48,667 nucleotides of DNA from a virus. The notes below the pieces were generated by a model, which was not told where the DNA came from, did no database searches, and saw only the letters and a list, made by a program, of their open reading frames with translations. The stretch spans positions 1-48,667 of IMG/VR virus record IMGVR_UViG_3300035190_000666; one strand, given 5' to 3'. Shown here piece after piece: positions 4,215 through 48,160 of this stretch (positions are counted from its first letter, which is position 1; the number at the start of each line of letters is the position of its first letter). The position numbers and the translations under genes are program-made.

Positions 4215-5834
4215 TCACAACTCTATGTATAATATTTCAAAATCGTATTTGTCCTTAAATTCATCTGGTATATCGATGCTGATATTTACATCTGCAACTG
4301 GAACTCCACCTATTAGTATATCAGGTGTGATAGAGTCAATTTTGATAACAACTTCTTTTGCTGCTGAATTTATTTGCTGTAAATTAATTTCATTTCTTAC
4401 CGACTCATAATCTATGTCTATAGATCTTATTCTTTTAGATCCATCTGAGCCAGAATGAGAATGTTCACCTATCTGTACTCCGTCTATCTTTGCAGCATTT
4501 TCTACTGTTATATCTCCAACTATTACTCCGCCAGACTTCATTAGATACTGGGGATGACTATCTTCGCTTAAGTCATCTAATAAAGAGTGACTAGATTTTA
4601 GTGAGTTAATTTGAGACTCATCTACGAATAAACCAGAAAGCAAAGAAGCATAATTTGAATCTGTTTCGGTAGTAACAATTCTTTCTCTATTTACAGCTTT
4701 TATAGATAGCTGAGATATAAAGCTTGTGTACTTTCTTCTTTGAACTATAGATTGATACAAGGAATCTATTTTTGCAGATGTGTTATTCCTTCTTTCTAAT
4801 AGGTCTGTTAAAACTGACTTAAAGTTACCCTCTGCGGCTAATAGTGCTATTGCTGCTTCTTCTGACAAAGAAGGTAGTTCTGTTTTCATATTTGTAGTTC
4901 TTATATCTAGAGCAAAATCGGAAACAACTTTTGTTTTAAACCTTAATGATGGACTTAAATACTTATTGTAAAATACATTGCAGTTAGTTACCAAATCTTT
5001 ATGAAGGGTATCTAACTGGCTGTCTATCATGTTCGTTAAAGAGTTTACTTTGATAGAAAAAAATGCTTGAAATTGAGCGGCTTGCTTTTTAGTTGTTTTA
5101 TCCACTTCGGTTTCTGGCAAACCTGTTGGGGATGATTTGATTGATTGGGCAAAGAGTTCCTTATAGTGGATTGCCATTTTGAGCCAGTATAAGTAGTACG
5201 ACGCGACTTGCTGTTGTGAGTCATCTTCATAGTTATCTCCAAAATCTGCACCTAATGAACTTATGATGCAATTAGTTTCGTTTACTAAGTACTTAATAAT
5301 TTCTCTAAAATCGTAGATGTGACCAAATGTAGTATTTGATATTAAGTTATCATATTCTTTTACAAATTTTCTATAACCTCTTGTTTGAACTCCTTCCGCA
5401 TAAAGATATTGGTCAAAGCATATGAAAGGTGGCCTAGGATACTTCAGGCTACCCGCATATCCTTCTATCTCTATTTTGGGATATGGATGATCAACTTTAT
5501 TAATTTCATCCCAAACATAGGCGTGTGCTTCTTCTAAGTTTGGATTATTTAATGGATCTAGTTTTACTTGTCTTAATAGATCTTCTAAATCTTTTAAGAA
5601 TTTAAGTAAGTCGGAAAGACTATTTTTTGCTTCTTGCTTAAGAGATTGCAAAGGCACTGAATATGGCTGATCATTACCATATGATACTCCAGCTTGGCGG
5701 AGATTTGAATTTGGTCCATTTCTAGAAAAAACTGATTCAGTTGAGCTGCGAGAAGATGATTCAGTTGTTGAATAATCTAATGTTACCTTTTGCTCTGTTG
5801 AAAGTTGATTGTCTATATTGTTAACTAATGACAT
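4215..5834 (-). CDS. tail/appendage structural protein (539 aa)
   Basis: The N-terminal ~400 residues are mostly helical with no recognised domain. Near the C-terminus is LSEDSHPQYLMKSGG followed by VIVGDITVENAAKIDGVQIG and a His/Ser loop. The HPQYL motif with repeating beta turns is common in phage tail-fibre proteins. The start ATG has TAGG upstream. The gene sits between terminase and the 330-aa tail gene; its stop is one base from the next start. I infer a virion appendage protein. Confidence 0.65.
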   Translation of the reverse strand: MSLVNNIDNQLSTEQKVTLDYSTTESSSRSSTESVFSRNGPNSNLRQAGVSYGNDQPYSVPLQSLKQEAKNSLSDLLKFLKDLEDLLRQVKLDPLNNPNLEEAHAYVWDEINKVDHPYPKIEIEGYAGSLKYPRPPFICFDQYLYAEGVQTRGYRKFVKEYDNLISNTTFGHIYDFREIIKYLVNETNCIISSLGADFGDNYEDDSQQQVASYYLYWLKMAIHYKELFAQSIKSSPTGLPETEVDKTTKKQAAQFQAFFSIKVNSLTNMIDSQLDTLHKDLVTNCNVFYNKYLSPSLRFKTKVVSDFALDIRTTNMKTELPSLSEEAAIALLAAEGNFKSVLTDLLERRNNTSAKIDSLYQSIVQRRKYTSFISQLSIKAVNRERIVTTETDSNYASLLSGLFVDESQINSLKSSHSLLDDLSEDSHPQYLMKSGGVIVGDITVENAAKIDGVQIGEHSHSGSDGSKRIRSIDIDYESVRNEINLQQINSAAKEVVIKIDSITPDILIGGVPVADVNISIDIPDEFKDKYDFEILYIEL

Positions 5835-20737: not shown

Positions 20738-21036
20738 ATGTTTTCTCCTTGTTGTGTATTGGTTGTTCATGACAAGAGGAAACCTATCAGGGTGTTTAGA
20801 CCATTTGCAACTCGTAGGGGAATATTTCTTGGATTTTTTTTGGTAACCTCTATAAACATATAAAACTCTATATGTGATTTTATTGGGGGGAAAATTTTTT
20901 GACTTGAACGATATGTGAACATATATAAGGGTATATAAATTCTTAAATAAGTAAAATATGGGAAAAAATATAAAGGGGTAATGATTATTATACTGTACAG
21001 TGTTATATTTTTAACACGCCCCGTACAGTATACCCC
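20738..21036. promoter_or_regulatory. divergent intergenic region with operator-like palindrome
   Basis: About 300 bases without a convincing gene, very AT-rich. Near 20,988-21,030 a nested inverted repeat TACTGTAC..GTACAGTA encloses GTGTTA..TAACAC just upstream of the first array promoter. This could be an operator or a terminator for the left side. The minus-strand pair probably also starts here. Confidence 0.45.
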
Positions 21037-21045
21037 TATAAATAT
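21037..21045 (+). promoter_or_regulatory. TATAAATAT promoter, cassette 1
   Basis: Same core as T4 late promoters (TATAAATA). It is followed by the leader TGCCACATTCCC at 21,051-21,062 and then the RBS of the first cassette gene. Confidence 0.65.
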
Positions 21046-21050
21046 CTCAA

Positions 21051-21062
21051 TGCCACATTCCC
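21051..21062 (+). repeat. conserved cassette leader TGCCACATTCCC
   Basis: The same 12-base leader follows four consecutive promoters: exactly at 21,051, 21,397 and 21,717, and as TGCCACATTTCC at 21,928. Degenerate forms (TGCTCCATTTCC near 22,510; GGCACATT near 23,085) follow others. It lies 6 bases after TATAAATA, so it is the transcript 5' end. Confidence 0.65.
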
Positions 21063-21083
21063 AACACAACCTAGGAGGTTGAC

Positions 21084-21281
21084 ATGGCAACGAAAGCAAA
21101 GAAGACAAGCAAGTACGCAGCTAAGCCAGAGTTCCTACAAGCATGCCGCACTAAGGGCATGCAAGCAGGTACACTCACAGGCAAAGCCGAATTTGCAGTA
21201 GCAAAGGCCGCCTATGTCACAGTGACAGGCACAGTCGAAGCTACGAAAGGCCTCATCGCAGGCCACAAGGCAAGCCGCTAG
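21084..21281 (+). CDS. cassette gene: small basic Ala-rich protein (65 aa)
   Basis: MATKAKKTSKYAAKPEFLQ, Lys/Ala-rich, with a hydrophobic Thr/Ala segment (FAVAKAAYVTVTGTVEATKG). GGAGGTTGAC precedes the ATG. Composition resembles cassette proteins at 22,545 and 30,600, suggesting a small family; a nucleoid- or membrane-associated role is conceivable but unproven. Base composition is richer in GC than the late operon. Confidence 0.7.
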   Translation: MATKAKKTSKYAAKPEFLQACRTKGMQAGTLTGKAEFAVAKAAYVTVTGTVEATKGLIAGHKASR

Positions 21282-21302
21282 TAATAGCAGGCTCGTCCCA
21301 TA

Positions 21303-21332
21303 GCTCAGGGTCTCCTTCGGGGGACCTTGAGC
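21303..21332 (+). terminator. TTCG hairpin terminator, cassette 1
   Basis: A 13-pair stem GCTCAGGGTCTCC / GGGGACCTTGAGC around a TTCG loop, directly after the gene. Confidence 0.75.
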
Positions 21333-21382
21333 GAACTAATCTTATACTTATTATATTTATATCTTTATTTATATTATATCAT

Positions 21383-21390
21383 TATAAATA
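21383..21390 (+). promoter_or_regulatory. TATAAATA promoter, cassette 2
   Basis: Followed after 6 bases by the exact TGCCACATTCCC leader. Confidence 0.65.
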
Positions 21391-21430
21391 TAGCAATGCC
21401 ACATTCCCAACATGAACTAGGAGGTTCACT

Positions 21431-21649
21431 ATGGCACGCTTTCGTAAGAAGGCTCTTAATAACATGTCCGTCTGGGAGCTTAGCTCCCTACTGGACACAT
21501 TGACAAACAAGCGTCATGCGCTTGATGTCGAGATCTCTGAGGTCTTGGGTTACATCCAAGACAGCAAGGTCATGACAGAAGTCATCTTTCGTGACAATGC
21601 TACCGGCGTTAAGCCGTACCAGCATCAGCACGACGACTTGTTCGTCTAA
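21431..21649 (+). CDS. cassette gene: hypothetical protein (72 aa)
   Basis: MARFRKKALNNMSVWELSSL with AGGAGGTTCACT upstream. Predicted helical N-half (LLDTLTNKRHALDVEISEVL) and a polar C-terminus ending QHQHDDLFV. Unknown. Own promoter, leader and terminator. Confidence 0.7.
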   Translation: MARFRKKALNNMSVWELSSLLDTLTNKRHALDVEISEVLGYIQDSKVMTEVIFRDNATGVKPYQHQHDDLFV

Positions 21650-21652
21650 GTA

Positions 21653-21693
21653 AGTGGTGGTCACCCGTCCCCCGGGTGACTACCCTTACCACT
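21653..21693 (+). terminator. hairpin terminator, cassette 2
   Basis: Nested stems AGTGGT/ACCACT and GGTCACCC/GGGTGACT followed by TTTTAT. Confidence 0.7.
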
Positions 21694-21702
21694 TTTATAT
21701 TG

Positions 21703-21710
21703 TATAAATA
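21703..21710 (+). promoter_or_regulatory. TATAAATA promoter, cassette 3
   Basis: Exact core, with the exact TGCCACATTCCC leader at 21,717-21,728. Confidence 0.65.
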
Positions 21711-21747
21711 TACCTATGCCACATTCCCTTCCTGAAAGGAGACAACC

Positions 21748-21864
21748 ATGTCTTATTGGCAAGCATACAAGTTGGTTTTCAAGACCAACTTAAAGGTTAC
21801 TGGTGTTGTTGTTCTGATTGTTGCCGCTATGGCAGCATCACAGCAACTACGCAAGAACCGCTAG
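21748..21864 (+). CDS. cassette gene: single-span membrane peptide (38 aa)
   Basis: MSYWQAYKLVFKTNLKV, then a hydrophobic segment VTGVVVLIVAAMAA and a basic end QQLRKNR. GAAAGGAGACAACC precedes the ATG. One transmembrane helix is predicted by eye. Too short for ordinary gene finders, but it has its own promoter, leader, RBS and terminator. Confidence 0.65.
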   Translation: MSYWQAYKLVFKTNLKVTGVVVLIVAAMAASQQLRKNR

Positions 21865-21867
21865 TTT

Positions 21868-21895
21868 AGTGCCCCCCTCCCCCTGGGGGGGTACT
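21868..21895 (+). terminator. GC-rich hairpin terminator, cassette 3
   Basis: AGTGCCCCCC pairs with GGGGGGGTACT around a short C-rich loop. Confidence 0.65.
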
Positions 21896-21913
21896 GCTAG
21901 TCTCTTTATATTG

Positions 21914-21921
21914 TATAAATA
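21914..21921 (+). promoter_or_regulatory. TATAAATA promoter, cassette 4
   Basis: Followed by TGCCACATTTCC, a one-base variant of the leader. Confidence 0.65.
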
Positions 21922-21959
21922 TATCTTTGCCACATTTCCTATTACGACTGGAGGTCGTT

Positions 21960-22142
21960 ATGTGCGTTTACCTTGAAGAAGTTGGTGATTGGGTTTCTTG
22001 TGAACCTGAATTCCACTACACTAACGGTGACATGGAGGAGTATCTTGCGAGCACTGGTTATGTGCCGCAGGACATTGAAGAACCAGAACCTTTCTGCTTT
22101 CTTACTCCTCCGGAAGACCGAGATGAGATTGAGCCCTTTTAG
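21960..22142 (+). CDS. cassette gene: acidic protein (60 aa)
   Basis: MCVYLEEVGDWVSCEPEFHY with TGGAGGTCGTT upstream. Very acidic with a Pro/Glu-rich end (DIEEPEPFCFLTPPEDRDE). Three Cys. Unknown; a small inhibitor or mimic is possible. The stop codon lies inside a weak hairpin (GAGCCC TTTT AGGGTTC) that may end the transcript. Confidence 0.65.
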   Translation: MCVYLEEVGDWVSCEPEFHYTNGDMEEYLASTGYVPQDIEEPEPFCFLTPPEDRDEIEPF

Positions 22143-22169
22143 GGTTCAGTCTTATCTACCATTATATAT

Positions 22170-22177
22170 TATAAATA
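22170..22177 (+). promoter_or_regulatory. TATAAATA promoter, cassette 5
   Basis: Exact core, but no TGCCACATTCCC leader and no RBS follow. Confidence 0.6.
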
Positions 22178-22182
22178 TCTCT

Positions 22183-22285
22183 ATGGAGCGTTTATCTGAT
22201 AAGTCGGAAGACGAAACAATGGCACCTGCTGTACACAGGCAAAAGCGTTGTCCTCTACCTTAGTACTCACCTTGTGTGGGTACTA
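22183..22285 (+). ncRNA. short cassette 5 transcript, possibly non-coding
   Basis: Starts 5 bases after TATAAATA and ends at a hairpin (TAGTAC..GTACTA, 22,261-22,285). The only ORF starts at the 5' end (MERLSDKSEDETMAPAVHRQ and six more residues), without an RBS; it would be leaderless. Either a 26-aa leaderless peptide or a ~100-nt RNA. Confidence 0.4.
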
Positions 22286-22306
22286 GGGTTTACTTCTTTT
22301 ATATTT

Positions 22307-22314
22307 TATAAATA
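22307..22314 (+). promoter_or_regulatory. TATAAATA promoter, cassette 6
   Basis: Exact core; drives a region with no open reading frame. Confidence 0.6.
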
Positions 22315-22320
22315 TATCCA

Positions 22321-22478
22321 TGCCAGATGTATGCACACCCTGCCTATTGGGTTTACATTTGAGTTCCTAGAACGCTACAACGTTTCCCTGACGGGATTGA
22401 TCTAGGAACGGCTTCCCTGAATAGGCTAAGTTTGATTACTCCTCATTACCTCTTGTAGAGGGTTTTGTAGGAGTTTTC
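22321..22478 (+). ncRNA. structured non-coding cassette RNA (~150 nt)
   Basis: No RBS or ORF. Nested perfect stems GCCTATT (22,342-48)/AATAGGC (22,420-26) and GTTCCTAGA (22,363-71)/TCTAGGAAC (22,401-09). The end is a double stem ACTCCT/AGGAGT with CCTC/GAGG, then TTTT. Promoter, structure and terminator in the same layout as the protein cassettes point to a dedicated small RNA. Confidence 0.6.
22438..22478 (+). terminator. terminator of the non-coding cassette
   Basis: ACTCCT pairs with AGGAGT and CCTC with GAGG, followed by TTTT. Confidence 0.6.
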
Positions 22479-22496
22479 ATTCCGATTATTATATAT

Positions 22497-22504
22497 TATA
22501 AATA
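22497..22504 (+). promoter_or_regulatory. TATAAATA promoter, cassette 7
   Basis: Followed by TGCTCCATTTCC, a diverged leader, then a GGAGG RBS. Confidence 0.65.
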
Positions 22505-22544
22505 TATCGGTGCTCCATTTCCTACACAACCTAAGGAGGTTGAC

Positions 22545-22736
22545 ATGAAGCATGAAGAACTGCACATCCGTGCACATAACGCTGGTACCAATACACGACT
22601 CGCAATGGGTCGTGTTGCCAGCAAGTCTAGTGTAATCGCCAAGCGCGTTGCACTCAAGACTGCTGACGCCACATTGGCTGGAATCACAGTTGTAACTTCG
22701 TTTACATCTGCGGTTACGCCAAGGCGCAAGCGTTAA
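22545..22736 (+). CDS. cassette gene: small basic protein (63 aa)
   Basis: MKHEELHIRAHNAGTNTRLA, then an Ala/Val/Thr-rich segment (VALKTADATLAGITVVTSFT) and a basic end TPRRKR. AAGGAGGTTGAC precedes the ATG. Resembles the 65-aa and 104-aa cassette proteins in layout: basic N-part, hydrophobic Ala/Thr segment, basic end. Unknown. Confidence 0.68.
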   Translation: MKHEELHIRAHNAGTNTRLAMGRVASKSSVIAKRVALKTADATLAGITVVTSFTSAVTPRRKR

Positions 22737-22753
22737 CTGAGACTCCCCTCTCA

Positions 22754-22787
22754 CCACATCTACCACCTTCGGGTGGTAGCTCTGTGG
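22754..22787 (+). terminator. TTCG hairpin terminator, cassette 7
   Basis: TACCACC TTCG GGTGGTA with an outer CCACA/TGTGG stem, then TTTTAT. Confidence 0.75.
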
Positions 22788-22798
22788 ATTTTATACTT

Positions 22799-22806
22799 TA
22801 TAAATA
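22799..22806 (+). promoter_or_regulatory. TATAAATA promoter, cassette 8
   Basis: Exact core 55 bases before the ATG at 22,861. Confidence 0.65.
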
Positions 22807-22860
22807 TATCTATGCCAGACAATCCTGTCTGTTCTTAAGTCTCGTGAAAGGAGACTTGTT

Positions 22861-23049
22861 ATGCGCGTTACAGCTCTTTTGCTTGCTAGTAGCCATCCTC
22901 GATGGGGTATGGTTAACCTTGTTGTTAAACCAGTAGGTGAATCTTCTGTGTATTCCGCTGTTGTTTACGTGGATGAACGTAATGTTCCTCAGATTGATTC
23001 TATTATTACCTTGGTTGGCAATGTACAGCTTACTCCCTTAGGGGAGTAG
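22861..23049 (+). CDS. cassette gene: beta-rich protein (62 aa)
   Basis: MRVTALLLASSHPRWGMVN with GAAAGGAGACTTGTT upstream. Alternating hydrophobic residues (NLVVKPVGESSVYSAVVYVD) predict a small beta fold. Unknown. The stop is inside the terminator hairpin ACTCCC TTA GGGGAGT (23,024-23,055). Confidence 0.68.
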   Translation: MRVTALLLASSHPRWGMVNLVVKPVGESSVYSAVVYVDERNVPQIDSIITLVGNVQLTPLGE

Positions 23050-23055
23050 GTTGTA
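23024..23055 (+). terminator. hairpin overlapping the stop codon, cassette 8
   Basis: TACAGCTTACTCCC pairs with GGGGAGTAGGTTGTA; the TAG stop is in the stem. Confidence 0.6.
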
Positions 23056-23069
23056 CCTACGTTATATTT

Positions 23070-23077
23070 TATAAATA
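23070..23077 (+). promoter_or_regulatory. TATAAATA promoter, cassette 9
   Basis: Exact core; GGCACATT follows as a leader remnant. Confidence 0.65.
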
Positions 23078-23121
23078 TATCCGTGGCACATTAACATCAC
23101 AACTTTAGGAAGGAGGTGAAC

Positions 23122-23298
23122 ATGTTTGATCACAAGATCACAGATGCGCAGGTTCTGCGCAGCGCAGCCGGTTTCTACATTGGCTCCCTTTACTGGGATG
23201 CCGATGCGGACAGTTGGCTTCCTTGGACTCGTTATTCAGCTGGCTATTACGCCACTGAAGCCGAGGCTGAGGCTGCTCTTCCAGCTTATGCTGATTGA
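23122..23298 (+). CDS. cassette gene: aromatic small protein (58 aa)
   Basis: MFDHKITDAQVLRSAAGFY. AAGGAGGTGAAC precedes this ATG, so a GTG two codons upstream is not used. Trp/Tyr-rich beta core (GSLYWDADADSWLPWTRYSA) and an acidic Ala-rich helix. Unknown. Confidence 0.68.
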   Translation: MFDHKITDAQVLRSAAGFYIGSLYWDADADSWLPWTRYSAGYYATEAEAEAALPAYAD

Positions 23299-23304
23299 GC
23301 TATT

Positions 23305-23338
23305 ACTTTACTGCTCACCTTCGGGTGAGTAGTTTAGT
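23305..23338 (+). terminator. TTCG hairpin terminator, cassette 9
   Basis: CTCACC TTCG GGTGAG with flanking ACT/AGT pairs. Confidence 0.72.
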
Positions 23339-23353
23339 TAGCTTTATATATTT

Positions 23354-23361
23354 TATAAATA
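23354..23361 (+). promoter_or_regulatory. TATAAATA promoter, cassette 10
   Basis: Exact core 38 bases before the next ATG. Confidence 0.65.
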
Positions 23362-23398
23362 TATCTGTGTCCTATTACTCTACACGATTGGAGATCGT

Positions 23399-23587
23399 AT
23401 GAGACTCAATGACACTGCTTGCTTTTGTTGCAAGTGCCACACGCAATTACGTGCTATGGAAGGCCGAGTCCTATGGGATGAGGGCTTCTTCCGCACATTC
23501 TGCAAGCCACATGCAGAAGAATTGCTTAGTGCGCGCAAGCAACGCAAGCTTAGCAAGAAGAACGCTGGTATTACACCAATGTTCTGA
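23399..23587 (+). CDS. cassette gene: Cys-rich zinc-finger-like protein (62 aa)
   Basis: MRLNDTACFCCKCHTQLRA, then FCKPHAEELLSARKQRKLS. Cys pairs CxCCxC at the N-terminus and C..H further on could hold one Zn. The C-terminal half is basic and helical. TTGGAGATCGT precedes the ATG. A nucleic-acid-binding role is plausible but inferred. Confidence 0.68.
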   Translation: MRLNDTACFCCKCHTQLRAMEGRVLWDEGFFRTFCKPHAEELLSARKQRKLSKKNAGITPMF

Positions 23588-23594
23588 CCTTCAT

Positions 23595-23615
23595 GGACCA
23601 CCTTCGGGTGGTTCA
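23595..23615 (+). terminator. TTCG hairpin terminator, cassette 10
   Basis: GGACCACC TTCG GGTGGTTC then TTTAG. Confidence 0.72.
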
Positions 23616-23635
23616 TTTAGGCACTGTTATATATC

Positions 23636-23643
23636 TATAAATA
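23636..23643 (+). promoter_or_regulatory. TATAAATA promoter, cassette 11
   Basis: CTATAAATAC core. Confidence 0.6.
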
Positions 23644-23692
23644 CTACCGTGAACCTTTAGTGACAGGTCCAAGTCACAGAGAGTAGGTAATT

Positions 23693-24034
23693 ATGTCCAA
23701 GTTCCATGTAAATTGGATTTCCGACAAGCCAAGTAAGCACAACACCCACCAGATGTTGCTGCAGCCACTCGAGTCTCACACAGTTGAGCGCGATGTAACT
23801 GCTAAGCCCGTCTGGTGTGTTTGGCTTCCTGCTGCGGCACTTCCAACCTACATTCAATTCTTCGAACAGGCTAAGGCCGCTTCAAAGAAGTTTGTTCTGG
23901 AAGCAGACGTCCTTGAGATCAAGGTCGCTCCTGTGTTCCCTAAACAGGACGGGTCCAAGCAACAGGATCTTGTAATCAAGTTTACAGGCGTTGTCTCCAA
24001 GTCAGTGGAGGCCGACGCTTCCGTAACTTGGTAG
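23693..24034 (+). CDS. cassette gene: beta-rich protein, possible paralogue of 24,490 gene (113 aa)
   Basis: MSKFHVNWISDKPSKHNTH. The layout parallels the protein at 24,490-24,927: an N-terminal M-x-KF-beta strand, a Trp-rich strand (VWCVWLPAAAL), a helix with AKAASKKFVLEADV (compare SAKSSGKQLFIECK) and a final strand after GSK (QQDLVIKFTGVV, compare FYQTITLQVD). Both may share an OB-like small beta barrel. Function unknown; ssDNA binding is speculative. Confidence 0.65.
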   Translation: MSKFHVNWISDKPSKHNTHQMLLQPLESHTVERDVTAKPVWCVWLPAAALPTYIQFFEQAKAASKKFVLEADVLEIKVAPVFPKQDGSKQQDLVIKFTGVVSKSVEADASVTW

Positions 24035-24052
24035 CACGGGTCCAGTAATGCA

Positions 24053-24093
24053 GTTAAGTTTCCAGCACATCTTCGGGTGTGTTGGGACTTAAC
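24053..24093 (+). terminator. long TTCG hairpin terminator, cassette 11
   Basis: GTTAAGT/ACTTAAC outer stem and CCAGCAC/GTGTTGG inner stem around CTTCGG. Confidence 0.72.
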
Positions 24094-24107
24094 TCCATGT
24101 ATATATC

Positions 24108-24115
24108 TATAAATA
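24108..24115 (+). promoter_or_regulatory. TATAAATA promoter, cassette 12
   Basis: Exact core 30 bases before the next ATG pair. Confidence 0.65.
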
Positions 24116-24144
24116 TACCTATGACTACTCTCTTGGAAGGAGAC

Positions 24145-24366
24145 ATGATGAACATCATCAAATTTATTCGTAACATTGGCAACCCACACGGCATGGAATG
24201 GCGCAAGATTGGATTTCTCAATCTTTGGGCTCTTGACGATTGGAATCTCTATGCAGGCACAGGCTTGCATTGGAGCACTTGTGATCGTACTTTAATTCTT
24301 GCATGGGAACATGCTGGAGAATTCAAGACCAAGACATTGCTTCGCCTTAAGCCCGCAAGGGCTTAG
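24145..24366 (+). CDS. cassette gene: hypothetical protein (73 aa)
   Basis: MMNIIKFIRNIGNPHGMEW; either of two adjacent ATGs may be used (GGAAGGAGAC upstream). Trp-rich (WALDDWNLYAGTGLHWSTCD). Unknown. The stop lies in the hairpin TAAGCCC GCAA GGGCTTA (24,348-24,365), the probable terminator. Confidence 0.66.
   Translation: MMNIIKFIRNIGNPHGMEWRKIGFLNLWALDDWNLYAGTGLHWSTCDRTLILAWEHAGEFKTKTLLRLKPARA
24348..24365 (+). terminator. GCAA hairpin overlapping the stop, cassette 12
   Basis: A seven-pair stem with a GCAA tetraloop; the TAG stop is at its 3' end. Confidence 0.6.
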
Positions 24367-24424
24367 GGTGTTGCTTTTTATATATAATTAATTTATATAT
24401 CTTACTGCTTATATTTATATTTAT

Positions 24425-25233: not shown

Positions 25234-25631
25234 CAAATGTCTTGTTCGGTTTGGGCGCCGCATCAAGCAAAAACAATAGCAGATACTTATCAGGACTAGT
25301 AACTCAGTTACCTATAGTCATTGTGCATATGCACTGCTTAACCCAACGGTTTCTAGTCTTCCGTATCAAAAAGACTCTTATCTCTTATACAAGTATAGAA
25401 CAAATACTTTATAAAATATATAAATATTGTTAGACGAGCGACTAAATCAGGCGCTTGCAGGGGGGTACCCATATGCTAGAGGCATACTATGGATTGTTGG
25501 ACCATCATAGGCCACACAATGCTAGGTTATGGGTATCTCCCTCTCCCTTCTCTAGAAAATTGTCTATTTCAATTTTCAACAGTAATACCAACTAATGCCA
25601 AATACATATCAGACTAATCAAAGGAGCAATC
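25234..25631 (+). ncRNA. gene-free stretch with promoter and structured RNA candidate
   Basis: No convincing ORF with an RBS in ~400 bases. TATAAATA at 25,419-25,426 precedes a structured element at 25,461-25,541. There GGGTACCCATA pairs with TATGGGTATC, and ATTGTTGG pairs imperfectly with CCACACAAT inside. This matches the promoter-plus-RNA layout of the non-coding cassette at 22,321. Confidence 0.45.
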
Positions 25632-32293: not shown

Positions 32294-32316
32294 ACTAGCA
32301 ATGATTGGGGTATAAA

Positions 32317-32805: not shown

Positions 32806-32849
32806 TAACAATTGTAAACAATATCAATCGGAAAGATCAGGAGGGGCGC

Positions 32850-35351
32850 ATGCCAATCACACCAAAAATGCGGGCTGTTGGATATTCCAATGGCCCGCTT
32901 CGTAGCGTTAATAACTATCAGTATGGGTTCTATGAGATTGGTGCTATGCGCCAAGCTCTTACCCATTCTGGAGAAGATTACTTTCGTGTCGGGGCTCTTC
33001 CACTGCCCAAGAACGAATTCGAATTTAATCAAATTCAAGCTATCATCAATCACCCAAGCATTCAATATGCTTTGGTGGATAAGACTAAGATTGTAATCAC
33101 TCAGGTTGGCAACAACACTGAGTGGTTATCTATCTTTACAGATATGGGCTTTAAGGTTAAAGGTGGCGGTAAAACTGCTAAGCGGTTGAAAGCGTTCCAC
33201 CGACCTACTCTTATCAATGCAGTCTTTGCACTTGGTGAAATCTTTGTCCAATATGCTGACGCTGACGAGTTTAGTCGTTATGCGTTTGAAGGCCAAGAGT
33301 TCACTGAGGAAGAAGTAGACAGACTTCTTGATGGTGGGTTTGTAATTCATCCTCGGCTGATTAAAGCCGGCGTAGACAACTTACCTGCATTTGAAGCTGG
33401 ATCAACTAATGATCCTAACGAGTATTATTACAATCCTCGTATGCGTCAAAATGCTATCAAAGACTTGCTTAATACTAAAGCTTTCAATGGTCGTATCATC
33501 GGCCCTGATGGCTTTCTTAAAGGCAATTGCTTTGTTTCGGATAAACTTCCTGAAGGGGTTGACGTGCTTTCTTGGCACGGCAATCTTAAATCAGAAATTG
33601 TTTATGACGAAGGTTGGATGTTCCAAGCAGAACCACAAAATGCTAAATCTCGTGTTCACACAGATGATCAAACTATGATCAATCTTCCACAGCTTTTTAC
33701 TAAAAGCGAAATGGAATATTGGCTTTCCGAAGAGTACGAAAAGATGTTTCAAGAAGCGCTCAATGGCAAGCTATTGAGCAATTGGAAGAACATCTATCAG
33801 CGTACTTGGAAGGATAAGGTTGATCCTGAGGACGAGGAAGCCCAAGCCCGCATGCAATATGTGGGTTATCGTTGGGTTGCTATGGGAATGAAGGTAACTG
33901 AATCCCCGTGGATGTTTGAGACGCTGGCTACTAGTCATGCTAAGCCGTTGAAATCTAAAATTCCTATACCTTGTGCTGTTTATGAACAGATCATCTCAGA
34001 GTCTTTGGCTCGGATGGCTGGTTATGAAATTGAAGTTGAACAAGGAACTATTCAACGCCTAAGTGAACTCGAAGTTCACGTAGTAAACGATCTAGACTGG
34101 ATTGAGATGTATGCATCTCATGGTGGCTGTGATCAAGACGACTTCTTTAAACTCTTTTATCGTGAGTTTGAAGGCGGAGATCTTGACGGTCACAAGTCTG
34201 TAATCGTTGCCCGTTCACCAAACGGAATTGGTGAGTATTCAATCTTTGAATATGTAGAAGGAGCCTGGCATCCGCATTGGCTTACTTCTACAGGTGAGAA
34301 GATTACATTTCCTAAAGTATCTGGGCGTGGTTGGGTACAGCGTTTGTCTGAAGCTTTGGCTGAAGAACAAGTTAGCTACATTGGTTTGCCTAGTCAAATC
34401 AATCCCCCGCCTAAGCGTACTGGCGAAGTGTATACTCGTGAGGATGTCTTAACTGACATCCGTACATCTATGGCTACTGGCAGCGTTGGTCGTTTCGTCA
34501 ACGCTTCTATGTTACATTCATCTGTCTTTGGCACTCATCGAGAACAGCAACTTTGCAGTCTCGAGGATGCTATTGACGGATTTATTCAAACTGCTATAGC
34601 CGATGATCGTGACTGTATTGACGAAGACGCAACTACTATGGTGCGTCAAGTTATTCAGTCTGGTCTTCCCGTGGATCGTGCTCTTTGGGATAGCCGTCGT
34701 TTCGATGGTTATCTTAAGAAGGGCGAATGGGTTGAGAAATACGAAGGCGTTATTACTCAGCTCAATGATCTATGCAAGAGCTATTATCTTGCGTATGCTA
34801 AGCGTGTACACACTTGGGCTCAAGAGAATGCTCGTCCATCTGAATTTATAGATAAGATTGGTTATCGTATGAGCTTTCATGCGTTGCCAGTCTTGCGTAA
34901 ATTCCGTATGGAAATCTACAATGTCAATAGCCAGATGACCTCTGAACACGGAGGACATGTGGATCGTTCAGGTTGGGATAACCTGTATCAAACTATTGTC
35001 GATAAGATTAATTCTTATGAGTGTGAAAGTGATCGTCATGATCTTGTTCTTGGTTTGTATTCTGCTTCTTTGAAGCATAAGACTTCCAGTGGCAAGATTA
35101 CTGACCAGCTTGTTATGAACCGATTAGTCTTTCCATATTTGGAGCGTGCGCTTCAATTCTATGGTATTGCTACTCGTATAACTGCTAGTCATAATGATGA
35201 CGGAACTATCACTATCAATCAAGTTCGCACTCAACAGTGGGAAGTTATTGACGATGCTGGAACACATCATAGCTTTGATGATCCTTTGGATTATCAGCGT
35301 TATTGTGGAAAGCTTAGTCCAATAACATTTAGCTCAGCTAAAGCAAGTTAA
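32850..35351 (+). CDS. large protein of unknown function (833 aa), possible nucleic-acid enzyme
   Basis: MPITPKMRAVGYSNGPLRS with AGGAGGGGCGC upstream. Not recognised with confidence. An acidic cluster SHGGCDQDDFFKLF followed by VIVARSPNGIGEYSIFEY is loosely like the Asp-rich loop of double-psi-barrel RNA polymerases (YonO/QDE-1 type), but the order of motifs differs and only one Asp cluster is seen. The protein is soluble and rich in Trp/Tyr. It is single-gene, ends with a strong terminator and contains CGG followed by A at 34,011, read in frame as Arg. Its size and isolation suggest a replication or transcription enzyme. Confidence 0.6.
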   Translation: MPITPKMRAVGYSNGPLRSVNNYQYGFYEIGAMRQALTHSGEDYFRVGALPLPKNEFEFNQIQAIINHPSIQYALVDKTKIVITQVGNNTEWLSIFTDMGFKVKGGGKTAKRLKAFHRPTLINAVFALGEIFVQYADADEFSRYAFEGQEFTEEEVDRLLDGGFVIHPRLIKAGVDNLPAFEAGSTNDPNEYYYNPRMRQNAIKDLLNTKAFNGRIIGPDGFLKGNCFVSDKLPEGVDVLSWHGNLKSEIVYDEGWMFQAEPQNAKSRVHTDDQTMINLPQLFTKSEMEYWLSEEYEKMFQEALNGKLLSNWKNIYQRTWKDKVDPEDEEAQARMQYVGYRWVAMGMKVTESPWMFETLATSHAKPLKSKIPIPCAVYEQIISESLARMAGYEIEVEQGTIQRLSELEVHVVNDLDWIEMYASHGGCDQDDFFKLFYREFEGGDLDGHKSVIVARSPNGIGEYSIFEYVEGAWHPHWLTSTGEKITFPKVSGRGWVQRLSEALAEEQVSYIGLPSQINPPPKRTGEVYTREDVLTDIRTSMATGSVGRFVNASMLHSSVFGTHREQQLCSLEDAIDGFIQTAIADDRDCIDEDATTMVRQVIQSGLPVDRALWDSRRFDGYLKKGEWVEKYEGVITQLNDLCKSYYLAYAKRVHTWAQENARPSEFIDKIGYRMSFHALPVLRKFRMEIYNVNSQMTSEHGGHVDRSGWDNLYQTIVDKINSYECESDRHDLVLGLYSASLKHKTSSGKITDQLVMNRLVFPYLERALQFYGIATRITASHNDDGTITINQVRTQQWEVIDDAGTHHSFDDPLDYQRYCGKLSPITFSSAKAS

Positions 35352-35355
35352 CCTT

Positions 35356-35403
35356 ATGGGGGTCTGGTGTCACTTCGGTGATACTGGGCCCCCATATTTT
35401 TTT
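35356..35403 (+). terminator. strong intrinsic terminator
   Basis: TATGGGGG/CCCCCATA stem with an inner TGTCAC TTCG GTGATA hairpin, then about 10 T. Confidence 0.85.
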
Positions 35404-35631
35404 TTGTTACTTTAAATATAAAGTATATGATGGAATCGTTTGCCTTAGGGACTGAAGCAGAAAACATTCAGTGAACAGTGTAAGGAGATTACGAACGAGC
35501 GTCCTGCTGAACGTTTAAAATTACTATCGTATGACTTTGATCAGACATATTTAGGCTGTGCATAAAAAGCATAGTCTTTGCTGGTATTTAATTTTATACT
35601 TTATATTTACTTAAACCTTACAAAAATAAAT
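35404..35631 (+). other. gene-free stretch before the parS-like site
   Basis: No ORF with an RBS. It contains imperfect stem candidates (GCTGTGC..GCATAGTC near 35,552-35,575), possibly an RNA. The region leads into the palindrome at 35,632. Confidence 0.3.
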
Positions 35632-35649
35632 ATGTTCCACGTGGAACAT
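35632..35649. promoter_or_regulatory. parS-like 18-bp palindrome
   Basis: ATGTTCCACGTGGAACAT is a perfect palindrome. Its core differs from the bacterial chromosomal ParB consensus TGTTTCACGTGAAACA only by the symmetric T-to-C change also seen in natural parS variants. It lies in a 500-base non-coding region. No ParB gene is seen in the window. Confidence 0.6.
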
Positions 35650-35712
35650 TTGACTTACCCAATTTTAGCTAGTACAATTAAAACACATATAAAATATCAG
35701 TATCATCAATAG

Positions 35713-35866
35713 CTTGATGGTTTTGATGTCTCTAGGGTAATTAAAAAGTGAGCCATATAGTCCCTCCAGAAGCTCATTAAATGTCATTGGTTTACCCCCC
35801 GAATGACATTGGCGCTTTTCCGATTAGCGCTTTAATTTTTACTCTAGGGACTTCAAAGCCATCAAG
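35713..35866 (+). ncRNA. multi-branched structured RNA candidate
   Basis: A long outer stem pairs CTTGATGGTTTTGA.GTC with the 3' end (GAC.TCAAAGCCATCAAG). Inside are three hairpins: GAGC/GCTC, AATGTCATT/AATGACATT, and GCGCT/AGCGC. A run of T follows. No ORF overlaps. The following gene starts 28 bases later, so it may be a free RNA or a leader. Confidence 0.55.
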
Positions 35867-35893
35867 TTTTTTCTTTATATTAAAGGAACTTAA

Positions 35894-36205
35894 ATGGATT
35901 CTCCACTCGAACCTTCTAAATTTAATTTTAATACAGAAGAAGGTAGGACTAAATTCTACATGACAGCTCAAGCTGAATTTTATCAAGCTATTTCAAACTT
36001 AGAAAGTAGTATGGCTGAAGTCGGTACTATAATTCATTCAGTTGACTTTCAACTTTCACCTGAAGAACAACTCAAGAGTCTTGACAATGTTCTCCACAAG
36101 TATATTTTATCTTGGCAAACTTTGCATTTGTACTATCAAGAAATTCTTAAAATTAAAAATATAGAATTTCCAAGGTATTACCAAGATGATCTATATTCAA
36201 AATAA
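35894..36205 (+). CDS. hypothetical helical protein (103 aa)
   Basis: MDSPLEPSKFNFNTEEGRT with AAAGGAACTTAA upstream. Mostly helix (SNLESSMAEVGTIIHSVDF) and an aromatic C-terminal helix. Unknown. Confidence 0.62.
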   Translation: MDSPLEPSKFNFNTEEGRTKFYMTAQAEFYQAISNLESSMAEVGTIIHSVDFQLSPEEQLKSLDNVLHKYILSWQTLHLYYQEILKIKNIEFPRYYQDDLYSK

Positions 36206-36405
36206 TCTCATGCAAAAATGTTAGATGCCCAAATTTATATACCTTTTAGAAAAAAATGTCTATATTGTATATATGATTTGTAATGGGTATGTTATAATAA
36301 TTAACGATTTAAGTCGAAAGTTATCATAATAGCCTTTCTATTTATATCACTTTATATATGTTAATTAACCAACACCAATGCCAATACGGCAAGGAGAAAC
36401 ATACA

Positions 36406-36630
36406 ATGAGAACCCCAAGCAAGTCATTGTTAATAGACAAGTACATTGACGATAGAATCGGTCAAGAATTTAAACCGATGGATATTGCCAATTTACTAAA
36501 CTGCACAGTACAAACTGTGTACCTATATATCCGTAAAAATCCATCACGTTTCACAACTGTGAGTCGTGGTCTTTTTAAAATTAATGCAGCTGAAAAGCAG
36601 CTGTTTTTAAATTCAGATAGTACTATCTAA
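36406..36630 (+). CDS. helix-turn-helix DNA-binding protein (74 aa)
   Basis: CAAGGAGAAACATACA precedes this ATG; an earlier in-frame ATG lacks an RBS. MDIANLLNCTVQTVYLYIRK is a helix-turn-helix with a winged-helix-like end (FTTVSRGLFKINA). Probably a phage regulator. It sits between structured RNA candidates at 35,713 and 36,631 and next to the parS-like site. Confidence 0.68.
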   Translation: MRTPSKSLLIDKYIDDRIGQEFKPMDIANLLNCTVQTVYLYIRKNPSRFTTVSRGLFKINAAEKQLFLNSDSTI

Positions 36631-36753
36631 TAACGGTTTGAACTTAACGACTCCATGATTCTAACTTGCCTTGTTATAGGCAAGCTAACTACATAGTAAA
36701 TTTTACTTTGTTGTTTTAGGATTGTGGAGTCTTTTGTTTAAGTTTAGCCGTTA
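36631..36753 (+). ncRNA. multi-branched structured RNA candidate
   Basis: Ends pair TAACGG/CCGTTA, ACTTAA/TTAAGT and GACTCCA/TGGAGTC. Two internal hairpins: CTTGCC TTGTTATA GGCAAG, and TAGTAAA/TTTACTTTG. This is a three-way-junction layout. No ORF overlaps it. Confidence 0.6.
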
Positions 36754-36800
36754 ATCAGGAGGACTATAACTGAATACAATAGTATGCATCTCAAATATGC

Positions 36801-36995
36801 TATACTTATTACATGCCCGTTTGACAGCGGGCAGGGAATAATCCCTAACATAACAGTTATACTGTGAAGTCGGAGATGGCTAACCTGCCACTGTGAAGGA
36901 CATATCGTAATTGTCTAGCACAATCTTCGGTTGAACACCCAAGTTATACTAATGCGAAATGAAATTGTTTCGCAAACCAAAACGAAAGTGAACAA
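36801..36995 (+). ncRNA. structured leader upstream of the lysozyme-like gene
   Basis: A -10-like TATACT (36,799-36,804) precedes a chain of stems: TGCCCG/CGGGCA, AGGGA/TCCCT, ACAGT/ACTGT and CTTCGG-capped CAA/TTG. About 170 nt with no ORF, ending near the next ATG. A riboswitch is possible (actinobacterial cell-wall hydrolase genes often carry c-di-AMP-type leaders), but I cannot match a known consensus. Confidence 0.5.
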
Positions 36996-37001
36996 ACGAA
37001 A

Positions 37002-37604
37002 ATGAATATAATTAAAACAAAAAGAAATAAAATACTTTCCTATATTATAGGAATTTACTTAGTGCTTGGATTAACAGGCCGAGTAGTCTTGGCTGAATCA
37101 GCTGATTCTACCCTGCCAATGACCATCGAGCAAATAGCTCTTACTGGTGATCGCATGACTAAGTTAGCTACAACTTTGCCAACTCAAACAGTTGAATGGA
37201 AACATGGTGATATATCATGGCTTCCAGAATTAGCTGGTGCAGTTGGTTGGCCAAAGCATACCTGGAAGAAACTAGGACAAATCATCCTACGTGAATCAGG
37301 CGGATGCCCAAACCGTATTGGTAGTTCTATTGTAGATAAAAACTGCAATATTACTGGCTATACAAAAGCAACAAACAAATCCGATTCAGGATTATTACAA
37401 ATCAATGGAGTTAACTATAATAGAGAGAGAAATAAAAATGCTCTCGTTTGTTTAGAGTTAAAGTTCTGTAAACAAGAACAACTTTTAGATCCTGTTAATA
37501 ATCTCAGAGCAGGCCTTTTGTTGTACCAGAAAGCTGGTTGGGATCCTTGGGACCCATGTGCATGGGGACCAGAATTTGCACATAGGTGCAAAGCATCTGA
37601 TTAA
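37002..37604 (+). CDS. secreted lysozyme/transglycosylase-like protein (200 aa)
   Basis: A signal-like N-terminus (ILSYIIGIYLVLGLTGRVVL, then AESA), and a domain with IILRESGGCPNRIG, SDSGLLQINGVNY and LRAGLLLYQKAGWDPWDPCAW. The Glu in RESGG, the S-G-L-L-Q-I motif and the W-D-P-W end match lysozyme-like/SLT transglycosylase and Rpf-type folds that cleave peptidoglycan. Likely an endolysin-like or virion exit/entry wall hydrolase. Cys pairs suit a secreted protein. It follows a structured leader. Confidence 0.78.
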   Translation: MNIIKTKRNKILSYIIGIYLVLGLTGRVVLAESADSTLPMTIEQIALTGDRMTKLATTLPTQTVEWKHGDISWLPELAGAVGWPKHTWKKLGQIILRESGGCPNRIGSSIVDKNCNITGYTKATNKSDSGLLQINGVNYNRERNKNALVCLELKFCKQEQLLDPVNNLRAGLLLYQKAGWDPWDPCAWGPEFAHRCKASD

Positions 37605-37612
37605 TTAAGTTT

Positions 37613-37680
37613 GGGTAGTAGACAGTAACTAGGGTTTTTCGTCATAAATCAATCCAGTTAAAATAACCTGTCTACTACCC
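37613..37680 (+). ncRNA. hairpin with perfect 13-bp outer stem
   Basis: GGGTAGTAGACAG pairs with CTGTCTACTACCC over a 42-base loop. It may end the lysozyme transcript or be a small RNA. It lies directly upstream of the IS110-like gene. Confidence 0.55.
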
Positions 37681-37701
37681 ATTTTAATATTTACTTTTAT
37701 T

Positions 37702-37712
37702 TTCATACAAAG
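37702..37712 (+). repeat. TTCATACAAAG element, copy 2
   Basis: Identical to 32,283-32,293; 35 bases before the ATG of the IS110-like gene. Confidence 0.55.
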
Positions 37713-37747
37713 TAAGTGCATCATACCTACTAATAGAAACTACCTTT

Positions 37748-38497
37748 ATGACTACCACTGATAGACTTATTTCTATCCCTCTAACCAAAAATAAAGAAAC
37801 AGCTTCAACCTTATCTAAAGTTTACTGGGAGATTCGCAATCAACGGAACGAATTAACTAACTTAGTTGATCAAGATGAAACCTTGATGTATTTTCAAGAT
37901 CTTATTCTGGAACTAGAATCCCAAATGGATACTTCTTTAGAATCTTTTTGCCGTTCTTCAATGACTGGCAAATGGGCAATTTCCAATCTTGGAGTTGGCC
38001 CAATTACAGCTACTCGTTTACTTAGTTATATTGATATAATTAAATCTCGTACTCCAGAGCATCTATGGAGCTATGCTGGTTTGGTTCCCAACCAACCAAG
38101 TAAACAAAAGTATACATATAATAATAACTTAAAAGAAGTTTGTATTGATTTAGGTAAAAACTTTGTTAAATACTCTGCTAAAGACAGTTGTTTTTATGGT
38201 AAGTTGTATCTAGAAGAACGCAAGCGTCGAATTGAACTTAATGAGCAAGGCGAATATTCAGACCTTGCTAAAGATACTTTAAACTCTGCTAGCTCAAAAG
38301 ATAAAGCTATTCAAAGAGATAAAGATATTTATCTATCTGGAAAACTTCCACAAGAAAGGATCGATGCTCAAGCTCAACGGTATGCTGTTAAAATCTTTTT
38401 AGCTCATTGGCATGCTGTTGCACACTATGAAGCATTTGGTATCGAGTATGAAACTCATCATAAGAATATTATACCGGTTTACAATTCGCCATTCTAG
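37748..38497 (+). CDS. IS110-family transposase C-terminal-domain-like protein (249 aa)
   Basis: Residues ~70-115 carry SNLGVGPITATRLLSYID and HLWSYAGLVPNQPSK, the helix-hairpin-helix-like Transposase_20 signature of IS110/IS116 enzymes. The N-terminal DEDD RuvC-like catalytic domain of IS110 transposases is missing, so this is probably not an active transposase. The rest is helical and Lys-rich. No element ends are seen. A domesticated nucleic-acid-binding protein is likely. It contains CGG followed by A at 37,844, read in frame as Arg. Structured RNA candidates flank it. Confidence 0.72.
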   Translation: MTTTDRLISIPLTKNKETASTLSKVYWEIRNQRNELTNLVDQDETLMYFQDLILELESQMDTSLESFCRSSMTGKWAISNLGVGPITATRLLSYIDIIKSRTPEHLWSYAGLVPNQPSKQKYTYNNNLKEVCIDLGKNFVKYSAKDSCFYGKLYLEERKRRIELNEQGEYSDLAKDTLNSASSKDKAIQRDKDIYLSGKLPQERIDAQAQRYAVKIFLAHWHAVAHYEAFGIEYETHHKNIIPVYNSPF

Positions 38498-38514
38498 TTA
38501 CATAAAAAACCACA

Positions 38515-38522
38515 TATAAATA
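38515..38522 (+). promoter_or_regulatory. TATAAATA promoter
   Basis: Exact core 24 bases before the next ATG. Confidence 0.6.
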
Positions 38523-38546
38523 ACCGTTATACAATTGGAGTTTACC

Positions 38547-38888
38547 ATGTCTATCAATATCAGTGATGAAACTAGAGTTCAACAGAATCCAGAGCGCTTT
38601 GCTATTAAAGAGCCAAGCAAGGTTGTAACCTTTATTAAAGGTGAGCCACCAACAGGCGTAGGCCGTGGTAAGCGCAATCCTATAATTACCAATATCTACA
38701 ATGCTCTTACGCTTCGCCGTAACGAATGGGCACATGTTGATATCCAGATCACTAACGCAAAGCAGAAAGCAGCTATTATAGCTTCACTATATGCTCGTGC
38801 TCGTAAAGATAATCTTTACATTAGTTCACGCTCAATGTTCAATGATCGCTCAAAGACATTTGAACTTTGGGTAATGCTTTCCGCTTAG
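38547..38888 (+). CDS. hypothetical protein (113 aa)
   Basis: MSINISDETRVQQNPERFA with TTGGAGTTTACC upstream. A charged N-half and a compact C-half (AHVDIQITNAKQKAAIIAS; LYISSRSMFNDRSKTFELW). Base composition is GC-richer, like the cassette genes, and it has its own TATAAATA promoter. Unknown. The stop lies in the hairpin CCGCTTA..TAAGCGG (38,881-38,909). Confidence 0.66.
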   Translation: MSINISDETRVQQNPERFAIKEPSKVVTFIKGEPPTGVGRGKRNPIITNIYNALTLRRNEWAHVDIQITNAKQKAAIIASLYARARKDNLYISSRSMFNDRSKTFELWVMLSA

Positions 38889-38912
38889 TAGACTCTATCT
38901 CTTAAGCGGGAT

Positions 38913-39018
38913 AAGTGCCGTACGTTTATTAAGGATTTAACGAGCTCCATAACTTTCCCCAGACTGTTATGTCGAGTTCGCCCCTTTCGACCTTAGTAGA
39001 TGTACGGCACTACTTTTT
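38913..39018 (+). ncRNA. structured RNA candidate with terminator-like end
   Basis: AAGTGCCGTAC pairs with GTACGGCACT and is followed by a run of T. Inside, ATAAC/GTTAT closes a C-rich loop. About 100 nt, no ORF. One of several such elements in 35.7-39 kb. Confidence 0.58.
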
Positions 39019-39021
39019 TAT

Positions 39022-39032
39022 TTCATACAAAG
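39022..39032 (+). repeat. TTCATACAAAG element, copy 3
   Basis: Identical to copies 1 and 2; 21 bases before the ATG at 39,054. Confidence 0.55.
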
Positions 39033-39053
39033 TTTAAAATAATGAGGTATACT

Positions 39054-39308
39054 ATGCCAGCTTATGATTATCGAGAAAATCCTGATGATCTTAATTTTAA
39101 AGATGTAGATTTTTATCGTAATAGCTGCATTCATTGTAATGAAGAAAATGTAATCATAATTAATATAAATGATTTAACATTTTGGCAAAGCGGAGAGTTT
39201 ATACAAGACGCTTTTCCATACTTAAGTAGAGATCAAAGAGAGTTAGTTAAGACTGGCATTCATCCTGAATGTTGGGAAAAAATATTTGAAAGTAGCGATG
39301 AAGAATAA
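39054..39308 (+). CDS. hypothetical Cys/His protein (84 aa)
   Basis: The start MPAYDYRENPDDLNF has GAGGT upstream. CIHCNEENV and later HPECWEKIF could bind Zn (C-x-x-C...H-x-x-C). Acidic end. It overlaps the start of the subtilase gene by 11 bases, so expression is probably coupled. Confidence 0.62.
   Translation: MPAYDYRENPDDLNFKDVDFYRNSCIHCNEENVIIININDLTFWQSGEFIQDAFPYLSRDQRELVKTGIHPECWEKIFESSDEE

Positions 39309-48087: not shown

Positions 48088-48160
<73 letters not shown>

Follow-up and report, generated by a model that had tools for sequence, protein, structure and literature searches.

The window analysed here spans 48.7 kb as a fragment of viral record IMGVR_UViG_3300035190_000666 (all coordinates are window positions); in it, five structured intergenic stretches, termed elements 1–5, lie between positions 35,711 and 39,018. 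Comparison with related phage contigs and records (L001, L101, G002 and so on, the longest relatives reaching 268 kb) gives us fair confidence that element 1 is a phage small RNA (sRNA) whose loops pair with the Shine-Dalgarno sequence (SD) of the phage's RNA polymerase gene, that element 3 is a separate cis leader, and that elements 2, 4 and 5 are mainly terminators. Element 1 is probably an sRNA controlling the polymerase gene because, in one phage after another, its loops co-vary with that gene's ribosome-binding site. The features concerned are the following:

35711..35872, plus strand: element 1, candidate sRNA, a 29-bp outer stem around hairpins H1–H3 with a TTTTTT end
35747..35778, plus strand: hairpin H1, loop CATATAGTCCCTCCAGAA (CAUAUAGUCCCUCCAGAA)
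35780..35810, plus strand: hairpin H2, loop TTTACCCC/CCCG, kept in L001 and L101
35811..35831, plus strand: hairpin H3, loop TTTCCGATT (UUUCCGAUU); its complement AATCGGAAA lies just 5' of the SD of the polymerase gene
35650..35678, plus strand: promoter-like TTGACT-N17-TACAAT for element 1; L001 and L101 share the arrangement, again with a 17-nt spacer
32850..35351, plus strand: gene of an 833-aa protein, a predicted single-subunit two-barrel RNA polymerase (AlphaFold 2 model, Foldseek)
32826..32852, plus strand: target site AATCGGAAA-GATCA-GGAGGG-GCGC-ATG

All three hairpins of element 1 carry C-rich loops. The H1 stretch CCCUCC (35762–35767) is complementary to the SD GGAGGG of the polymerase gene, and the H3 loop to AAUCGGAAA, located 5 nt upstream of this SD, a match that is perfect over 11 nt in L001. 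The order of H1–H3 runs antiparallel to that of their sites on the mRNA, fitting the requirement of a two-loop contact. On both strands of the window, GGAGGG occurs four times, namely as this SD, opposite the loop of element 1 itself, and at two sites away from gene starts; among the ~40 plus-strand gene starts listed in the window it precedes the 833-aa gene alone. Ranking start sites by their duplex with the unpaired bases of element 1 placed the polymerase gene first among 135 open reading frames (ORFs) in the window, and the same ranking in relatives, with paired bases masked, yielded 1/76 in L009, 1/36 in L020, 4/38 in L001 and 4/57 in L007.

In ~18 related large freshwater phages, a loop of the RNA at the matching place complements the polymerase SD region. 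This RNA lies upstream of a syntenic module comprising a domain of unknown function (DUF) protein of ~150 aa and/or the family of gene 35894, followed by a helix-turn-helix (HTH) gene and element 3. The test set the interval preceding the module against the 833-aa gene's start site (−30 to +6), own genome versus shuffled genomes, with the longest Watson-Crick match and the duplex energy over the whole interval as the two statistics. In the discovery set, both statistics gave p values of 1e-4 to 0.016 in all subsets, and the longest match gave p 0.0002–0.006, varying with set and masking; as the genomes are related, all p values of this test are guides and not exact. Since the idea came from the discovery set, whose intervals had at first been picked by hand, a fixed 260-nt rule was applied there and to genomes fetched later, where the longest match yielded p 0.0009 for the discovery set, p 0.0003 for seven held-out genomes (among them L108, closely related to discovery genomes) and p 4e-5 for all 19 genomes; restricting the target to the SD gave p 2e-5 for the 19. 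Control stretches of the polymerase gene yielded p 0.18 (−66 to −30), 0.55 (+6 to +42), 0.37 (+42 to +78) and 0.93 (+100 to +136), a 260-nt interval further upstream gave p 0.38 against the polymerase SD, eight other gene families ranged from p 0.13 to 0.98 in the same test, and elements 2 and 3 were not significant against the same SD.

The individual loop/SD pairs illustrate how the two sides change together. They are TACCCTCCA/TGGAGGGTA in L101, where the SD UGGAGGGUA meets the loop UACCCUCCA; CTCCATTT/AAATGGAG in L117, where the unusual SD AAAUGGAG meets CUCCAUUU; CCTCCTTTGA/TCAAAGGAGG in L120 (SD UCAAAGGAGG, loop CCUCCUUUGA); CTCCTTTAA/TTAAAGGAG in L122 (SD UUAAAGGAG, loop CUCCUUUAA); TCTCCTTT/AAAGGAGA in L003; TACCTCCTAA/TTAGGAGGTA in L006 (SD UUAGGAGGUA, loop UACCUCCUAA); CTACCTCC/GGAGGTAG in L022; and CCCTCCTTA/TAAGGAGGG in G002. 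These data bear on an alternative that we regard as unlikely, namely that element 1 is simply an elaborate intrinsic terminator or the 5' leader of gene 35894, its C-rich loops being generic anti-SD sequences without a specific target. Such loops would indeed match any strong SD; however, the own-genome preference is confined to the polymerase SD, with the eight gene families, the flanking windows and the neighbouring RNAs negative, and unusual SDs such as AAATGGAG are met by equally unusual loops.

A second alternative is an RNAIII-like action of element 1 in trans, on host mRNAs or on a number of phage mRNAs whose SDs are G-rich, with the polymerase as one target among several; it appears doubtful to us, if less so than the first. 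The loop of H2 contains UUUACCCC, within the sequence UUUACCCCCCG, and in its UUACCCC it is the complement of GGGGUA(A), which stands at the start sites 32307 and 27229 (genes at 32305 and 27241); moreover, related genomes hold further GGAGGG-AUG sites. The co-variation, in contrast, singles out the polymerase gene among the phage gene families compared, and the gene family at 32305 does not reach significance (p 0.16).

Besides the relatedness of the genomes, several observations weigh against element 1 as an sRNA directed at the polymerase SD. The matches are short (6–11 nt), and the longest match lies off the SD in L029, L063 and L128 and covers it only partly in L028, and some of the matching bases are base-paired in the folds predicted for L006 and L022. 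Counterparts of element 1 fold weakly in L009, L007, L020, L120 and L117 (z −0.4 to −2.7). Duplex energy in the seven held-out genomes was not significant (p 0.15); this whole-interval statistic is noisy because stems pair with anything, and the longest match is the cleaner measure.

Both the loop–SD co-variation and the structure and conservation of element 1 are shown by sequence comparison. In the sister phage L001, the loops are unchanged and the stems altered. The second sister phage, L101, with the same gene order as the window, retains the three hairpins, their loops being AAUUUACCCUCCAG, AAUUACCCCCC and UUACCGAUU and their stems different at many pairs. Relative to the window, H1–H3 of L101 show 13 both-sided pair changes and 0 broken pairs, counted on hairpin arms aligned by hand, and the outer stem is different. 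Upstream, TTGANN-N17-TANNNT is found at the same place in the window, L001 and L101, a pattern for which by-chance matches are common (16 found vs 13.9 expected). More distant homologues in L082 and L096 exhibit the same outline at the same place, with a polymerase-like gene, a terminator, a parS-like palindrome, the element and eight U. The U-run end is present in the window and L082, and in the window the start codon that follows is ~20 nt away, which together with the abundance of long terminators in the region favours the reading of element 1 as a terminator or leader of gene 35894; that its outer stem changes while its loops stay argues for the sRNA instead. A DNA-pattern search for element 1 matched only L001 because its stems and loop flanks change, and the remaining counterparts were located by synteny combined with loop–SD matching.

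Two side observations concern similar sequences elsewhere. At 25430–25560, an apparently non-coding stretch holds a conserved G-run, GGGGGGTACCCATA, which can pair with the downstream UAUGGGUAUCUCCC and is complementary to the H2 loop of element 1; the G-run is also present in L001 and L004. In L028 (positions 4883–5100), three successive strong stem-loops follow the homologue of gene 38547, the first being branched with a GCCCCC loop, and this first one may be another C-rich-loop RNA.

The proposed target had no match in the sequence libraries searched with the 833-aa protein, nor did annotated phages match it in sequence. An AlphaFold model calculated from 23 homologues reached a pLDDT of 87.6 and a pTM of 0.83, compared with a pLDDT of 63.7 from an earlier 10-sequence alignment. 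Foldseek against the PDB returned only five matches at E < 0.001, all of them two-barrel RNA polymerases, including QDE-1 (E 1.3e-9), RDR2, phage P32 gp64 and P74 gp62, with moderate whole-chain TM-scores of 0.27–0.45. The residues D428, D430 and D431 are invariant within SHGGHDxDDFF, where DxDD is near but not equal to the canonical DxDGD. By its fold, the protein is predicted to be a single-subunit two-barrel RNA polymerase of the double-psi β-barrel fold. It shares this predicted fold with the phage enzymes crAss-like gp66 and P23-45 gp64 (PMC10770324), and differs from the known two-barrel phage polymerases in having no sequence match to annotated phages. Many phages encode two such polymerases per genome (PMC10770324). 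The G002 record contains two homologues of the 833-aa protein, and a 925-aa open frame in L101 (positions 1–2778) with 23% identity over 585 residues to the predicted two-barrel RNA polymerase is a possible second phage polymerase.

Regarding mechanism, element 1 would be transcribed from its own promoter and end at the U-run, and its loops would pair with the SD region of the polymerase mRNA. This pairing would most likely block ribosome binding and thereby limit or time polymerase synthesis, an outcome modelled on how the UCCC loops of RNAIII and RsaE act. The simplest outcome would be a feedback brake on the polymerase, a timing switch being equally possible. In Staphylococcus aureus, RNAIII and RsaE-type sRNAs use UCCC(C) loops that pair with G-rich SDs, blocking translation (PMC9217828). 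Element 1 resembles them as a structured RNA with accessible C-rich loops complementary to a G-rich SD, the pairing here being predicted, but it is phage-encoded and unrelated in sequence, is proposed to act chiefly on the RNA polymerase of the phage itself, and has a loop that co-evolves with this single SD. Antisense regulators of phages, such as the lambda OOP and aQ RNAs and the P22 sar RNA (reviewed in PMC12197685), likewise offer a precedent for a phage RNA down-regulating a phage regulatory gene through base pairing, as proposed for element 1. These are cis-encoded antisense RNAs, whereas element 1 is encoded apart from its target site and relies on short loop complementarity; a cis-antisense RNA of the OOP/sar type is ruled out, as element 1 lies on the target's own strand, downstream of the target gene in the window. 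The literature searched yielded no RNA regulator of a two-barrel phage RNA polymerase.

The order in which many phages express their genes is believed to be set by phage-encoded two-barrel RNA polymerases, and element 1, if the proposal is true, adds post-transcriptional control of phage transcription via the polymerase gene. A loop that keeps changing with its target SD is evolutionary evidence of pairing, and it can be swapped in a test. We lean, by a little, towards the broader view that an sRNA loop co-evolving with the polymerase SD throughout the lineage controls phage transcription post-transcriptionally, next to a new riboswitch-like class of leaders for Rpf/lysozyme genes. The latter is represented by element 3:

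36798..36806, plus strand: extended −10 promoter-like TGCTATACT, in relatives TGNTATAMT or slight variants of it, immediately before the first hairpin
36813..36986, plus strand: element 3, conserved structured leader RNA of a secreted transglycosylase gene
37002..37604, plus strand: gene of a secreted SLT/lysozyme-like protein downstream of element 3; in relatives Rpf-type Transglycosylas (PF06737) plus SLT

A covariance model of element 3 built from nine sequences matched most module-bearing relatives, and the element stood upstream of the secreted SLT/Rpf-type gene wherever that gene was checked. Across a set of 19 distinct sequences, 11 pairs were changed on both sides and the share of standard pair cells was 97.3%, in an alignment fitted to the model's structure, which favours the covariation count; 0/500 shuffles equalled this covariation and slid controls reached 0–3. 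Compensatory changes in homologues are thus present for elements 1 and 3 alike, in line with the sequence-only reading, which had made its proposal hinge on them. The motifs GAAGUCGGAGA, AUCUUCGGUU and CUAAUG are nearly fixed, whereas the hairpins vary. One DNA-pattern scan for element 3 gave no match, no covariance search of bacterial genomes having been made. Element 3 behaves like a cis-regulatory leader of the Rpf/lysozyme-type gene.

We consider it very unlikely that element 3 is a diverged c-di-AMP (cyclic di-AMP; ydaO-yuaA) riboswitch, as found before rpf genes in Actinobacteria. In favour of such an origin, c-di-AMP riboswitch control is known for rpfA in Streptomyces, and element 3 shares with this class its nature as a structured leader of Rpf-type (transglycosylase) genes, here in phages of probable actinobacterial hosts. 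In Corynebacterium, c-di-AMP riboswitches control a cell-wall peptidase gene (PMC9960051). However, no Rfam family, ydaO (RF00379) included, matches the window or L007 even at E 5–10, and the conserved motifs of element 3 differ from those of the riboswitch. As a compact, well-covarying leader with a consistent gene context and without an Rfam entry, element 3 makes a good candidate for ligand sensing or for a role in timing in phages whose hosts are abundant lake bacteria. An actinobacterial host is suggested because L007 encodes a WhiB-like protein (our reading of its annotation) and freshwater low-GC Actinobacteriota are known phage hosts (PMC10202952).

The remaining three elements each follow a gene:

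36631..36753, plus strand: element 2, a branched stem-loop that follows the HTH gene and is T-rich on its 3' side
37610..37682, plus strand: element 4, a perfect stem of 14 bp that follows the transglycosylase gene, its 3' side T-rich
38914..39018, plus strand: element 5, 21-bp stem with inner hairpin (UCCCC in the loop), then TTTTTT, similar layout in L101

Element 2 shows the same branched skeleton plus a U-run in L101 and L082, while other relatives hold unrelated strong stem-loops at its place, and the better reading is a branched terminator for the HTH gene, with conservation in two relatives. For elements 4 and 5, a terminator is probable. Element 5 ends in a U-run, element 4 only in a T-rich tail, and several relatives carry plain terminators after gene 38547; a further role for element 5 is possible, as L101 retains its UCCCC inner loop. 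The terminator scanner did not list elements 2, 4 and 5 because their loops exceed the length it allows.

That all five stretches are strongly structured, as the sequence-only reading had stated, was borne out by folding against 200 dinucleotide shuffles per element, where no shuffle reached the observed value for any element: z was −8.4 for element 1 (−66.8 kcal/mol), −8.3 for element 2, −4.4 for element 3, −4.9 for element 4 and −7.7 for element 5. Such folding is not peculiar to the region, as a whole-window scan at lowered resolution revealed many other strongly folding stretches, chiefly in a terminator-rich array at 21–26 kb. Internal hairpins had been claimed for two elements and are present, three in element 1 and two in element 2. 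Elements 1, 4 and 5 have long stems (29, 14 and 21 bp), with T-rich sequence following those of elements 4 and 5; element 3 is a multi-hairpin leader and not one closed element. The notion of a family fails, for the elements share neither sequence nor architecture and a search for a motif shared among the five found none; elements 1 and 3 are of interest individually. Of the proposed functions, a regulatory RNA suits element 1 and a structured leader element 3, with elements 2, 4 and 5 better read as (elaborate) terminators, and RNA decoys have no positive evidence. The suggested search against RNA families (Rfam 15, 4227 models, gathering threshold) returned a tRNA-Met at 48088 as its sole match within the window, and no element; with E up to 5 over 35340–39060 it gave one spurious microRNA match, and nothing credible in the L007 leader.

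The locus starts with the 833-aa gene (32850–35351), a terminator, a conserved stretch (35404–35610), a palindrome, the promoter-like sequence, element 1 and gene 35894, and continues with HTH gene 36406, element 2, element 3, gene 37002, element 4, gene 37748, gene 38547 and element 5. Annotated phages in the collection searched at the DNA level did not match the window. Between the polymerase gene and element 1 lie:

35355..35405, plus strand: intrinsic terminator of the polymerase gene
35404..35610, plus strand: 'element 0', intergenic stretch conserved with L001 only
35633..35648: perfect palindrome TGTTCCACGTGGAACA, parS-like, 1 nt upstream of the −35 of the putative element 1 promoter

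Element 0 is more conserved with L001 than its surroundings and lacks an ORF of at least 50 aa; it had no Rfam match, and a pattern search reached no relative besides L001. The palindrome resembles a ParB-binding parS site, is identical in L001 and occurs as the variant TGTTCCACGTGAAACA in L082. The sequence-only reading had overlooked element 0, a sixth conserved stretch, as well as this palindrome and the match between the loops of element 1 and the start site of the upstream gene. Gene 37748–38497 encodes a 249-aa protein in which Transposase_20 (IS110-type) is recognised only at the C-terminal domain; retained in most relatives at varying positions, it is perhaps a DNA-binding protein without transposition. 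An IS110-type bridge RNA, prompted by this gene, was dropped, the protein being short with only its C-terminal domain recognised and the layout of elements around the gene differing among relatives. At 21000–24400, small ORFs form an array, each preceded by a TATAAATA-like (T4 late-type) sequence and followed by a strong hairpin terminator. In L009, a 73-nt match (676–748) covers the ends of the transfer-messenger RNA (tmRNA) model RF00023 at gathering score and represents a tRNA-like RNA without the tmRNA body.

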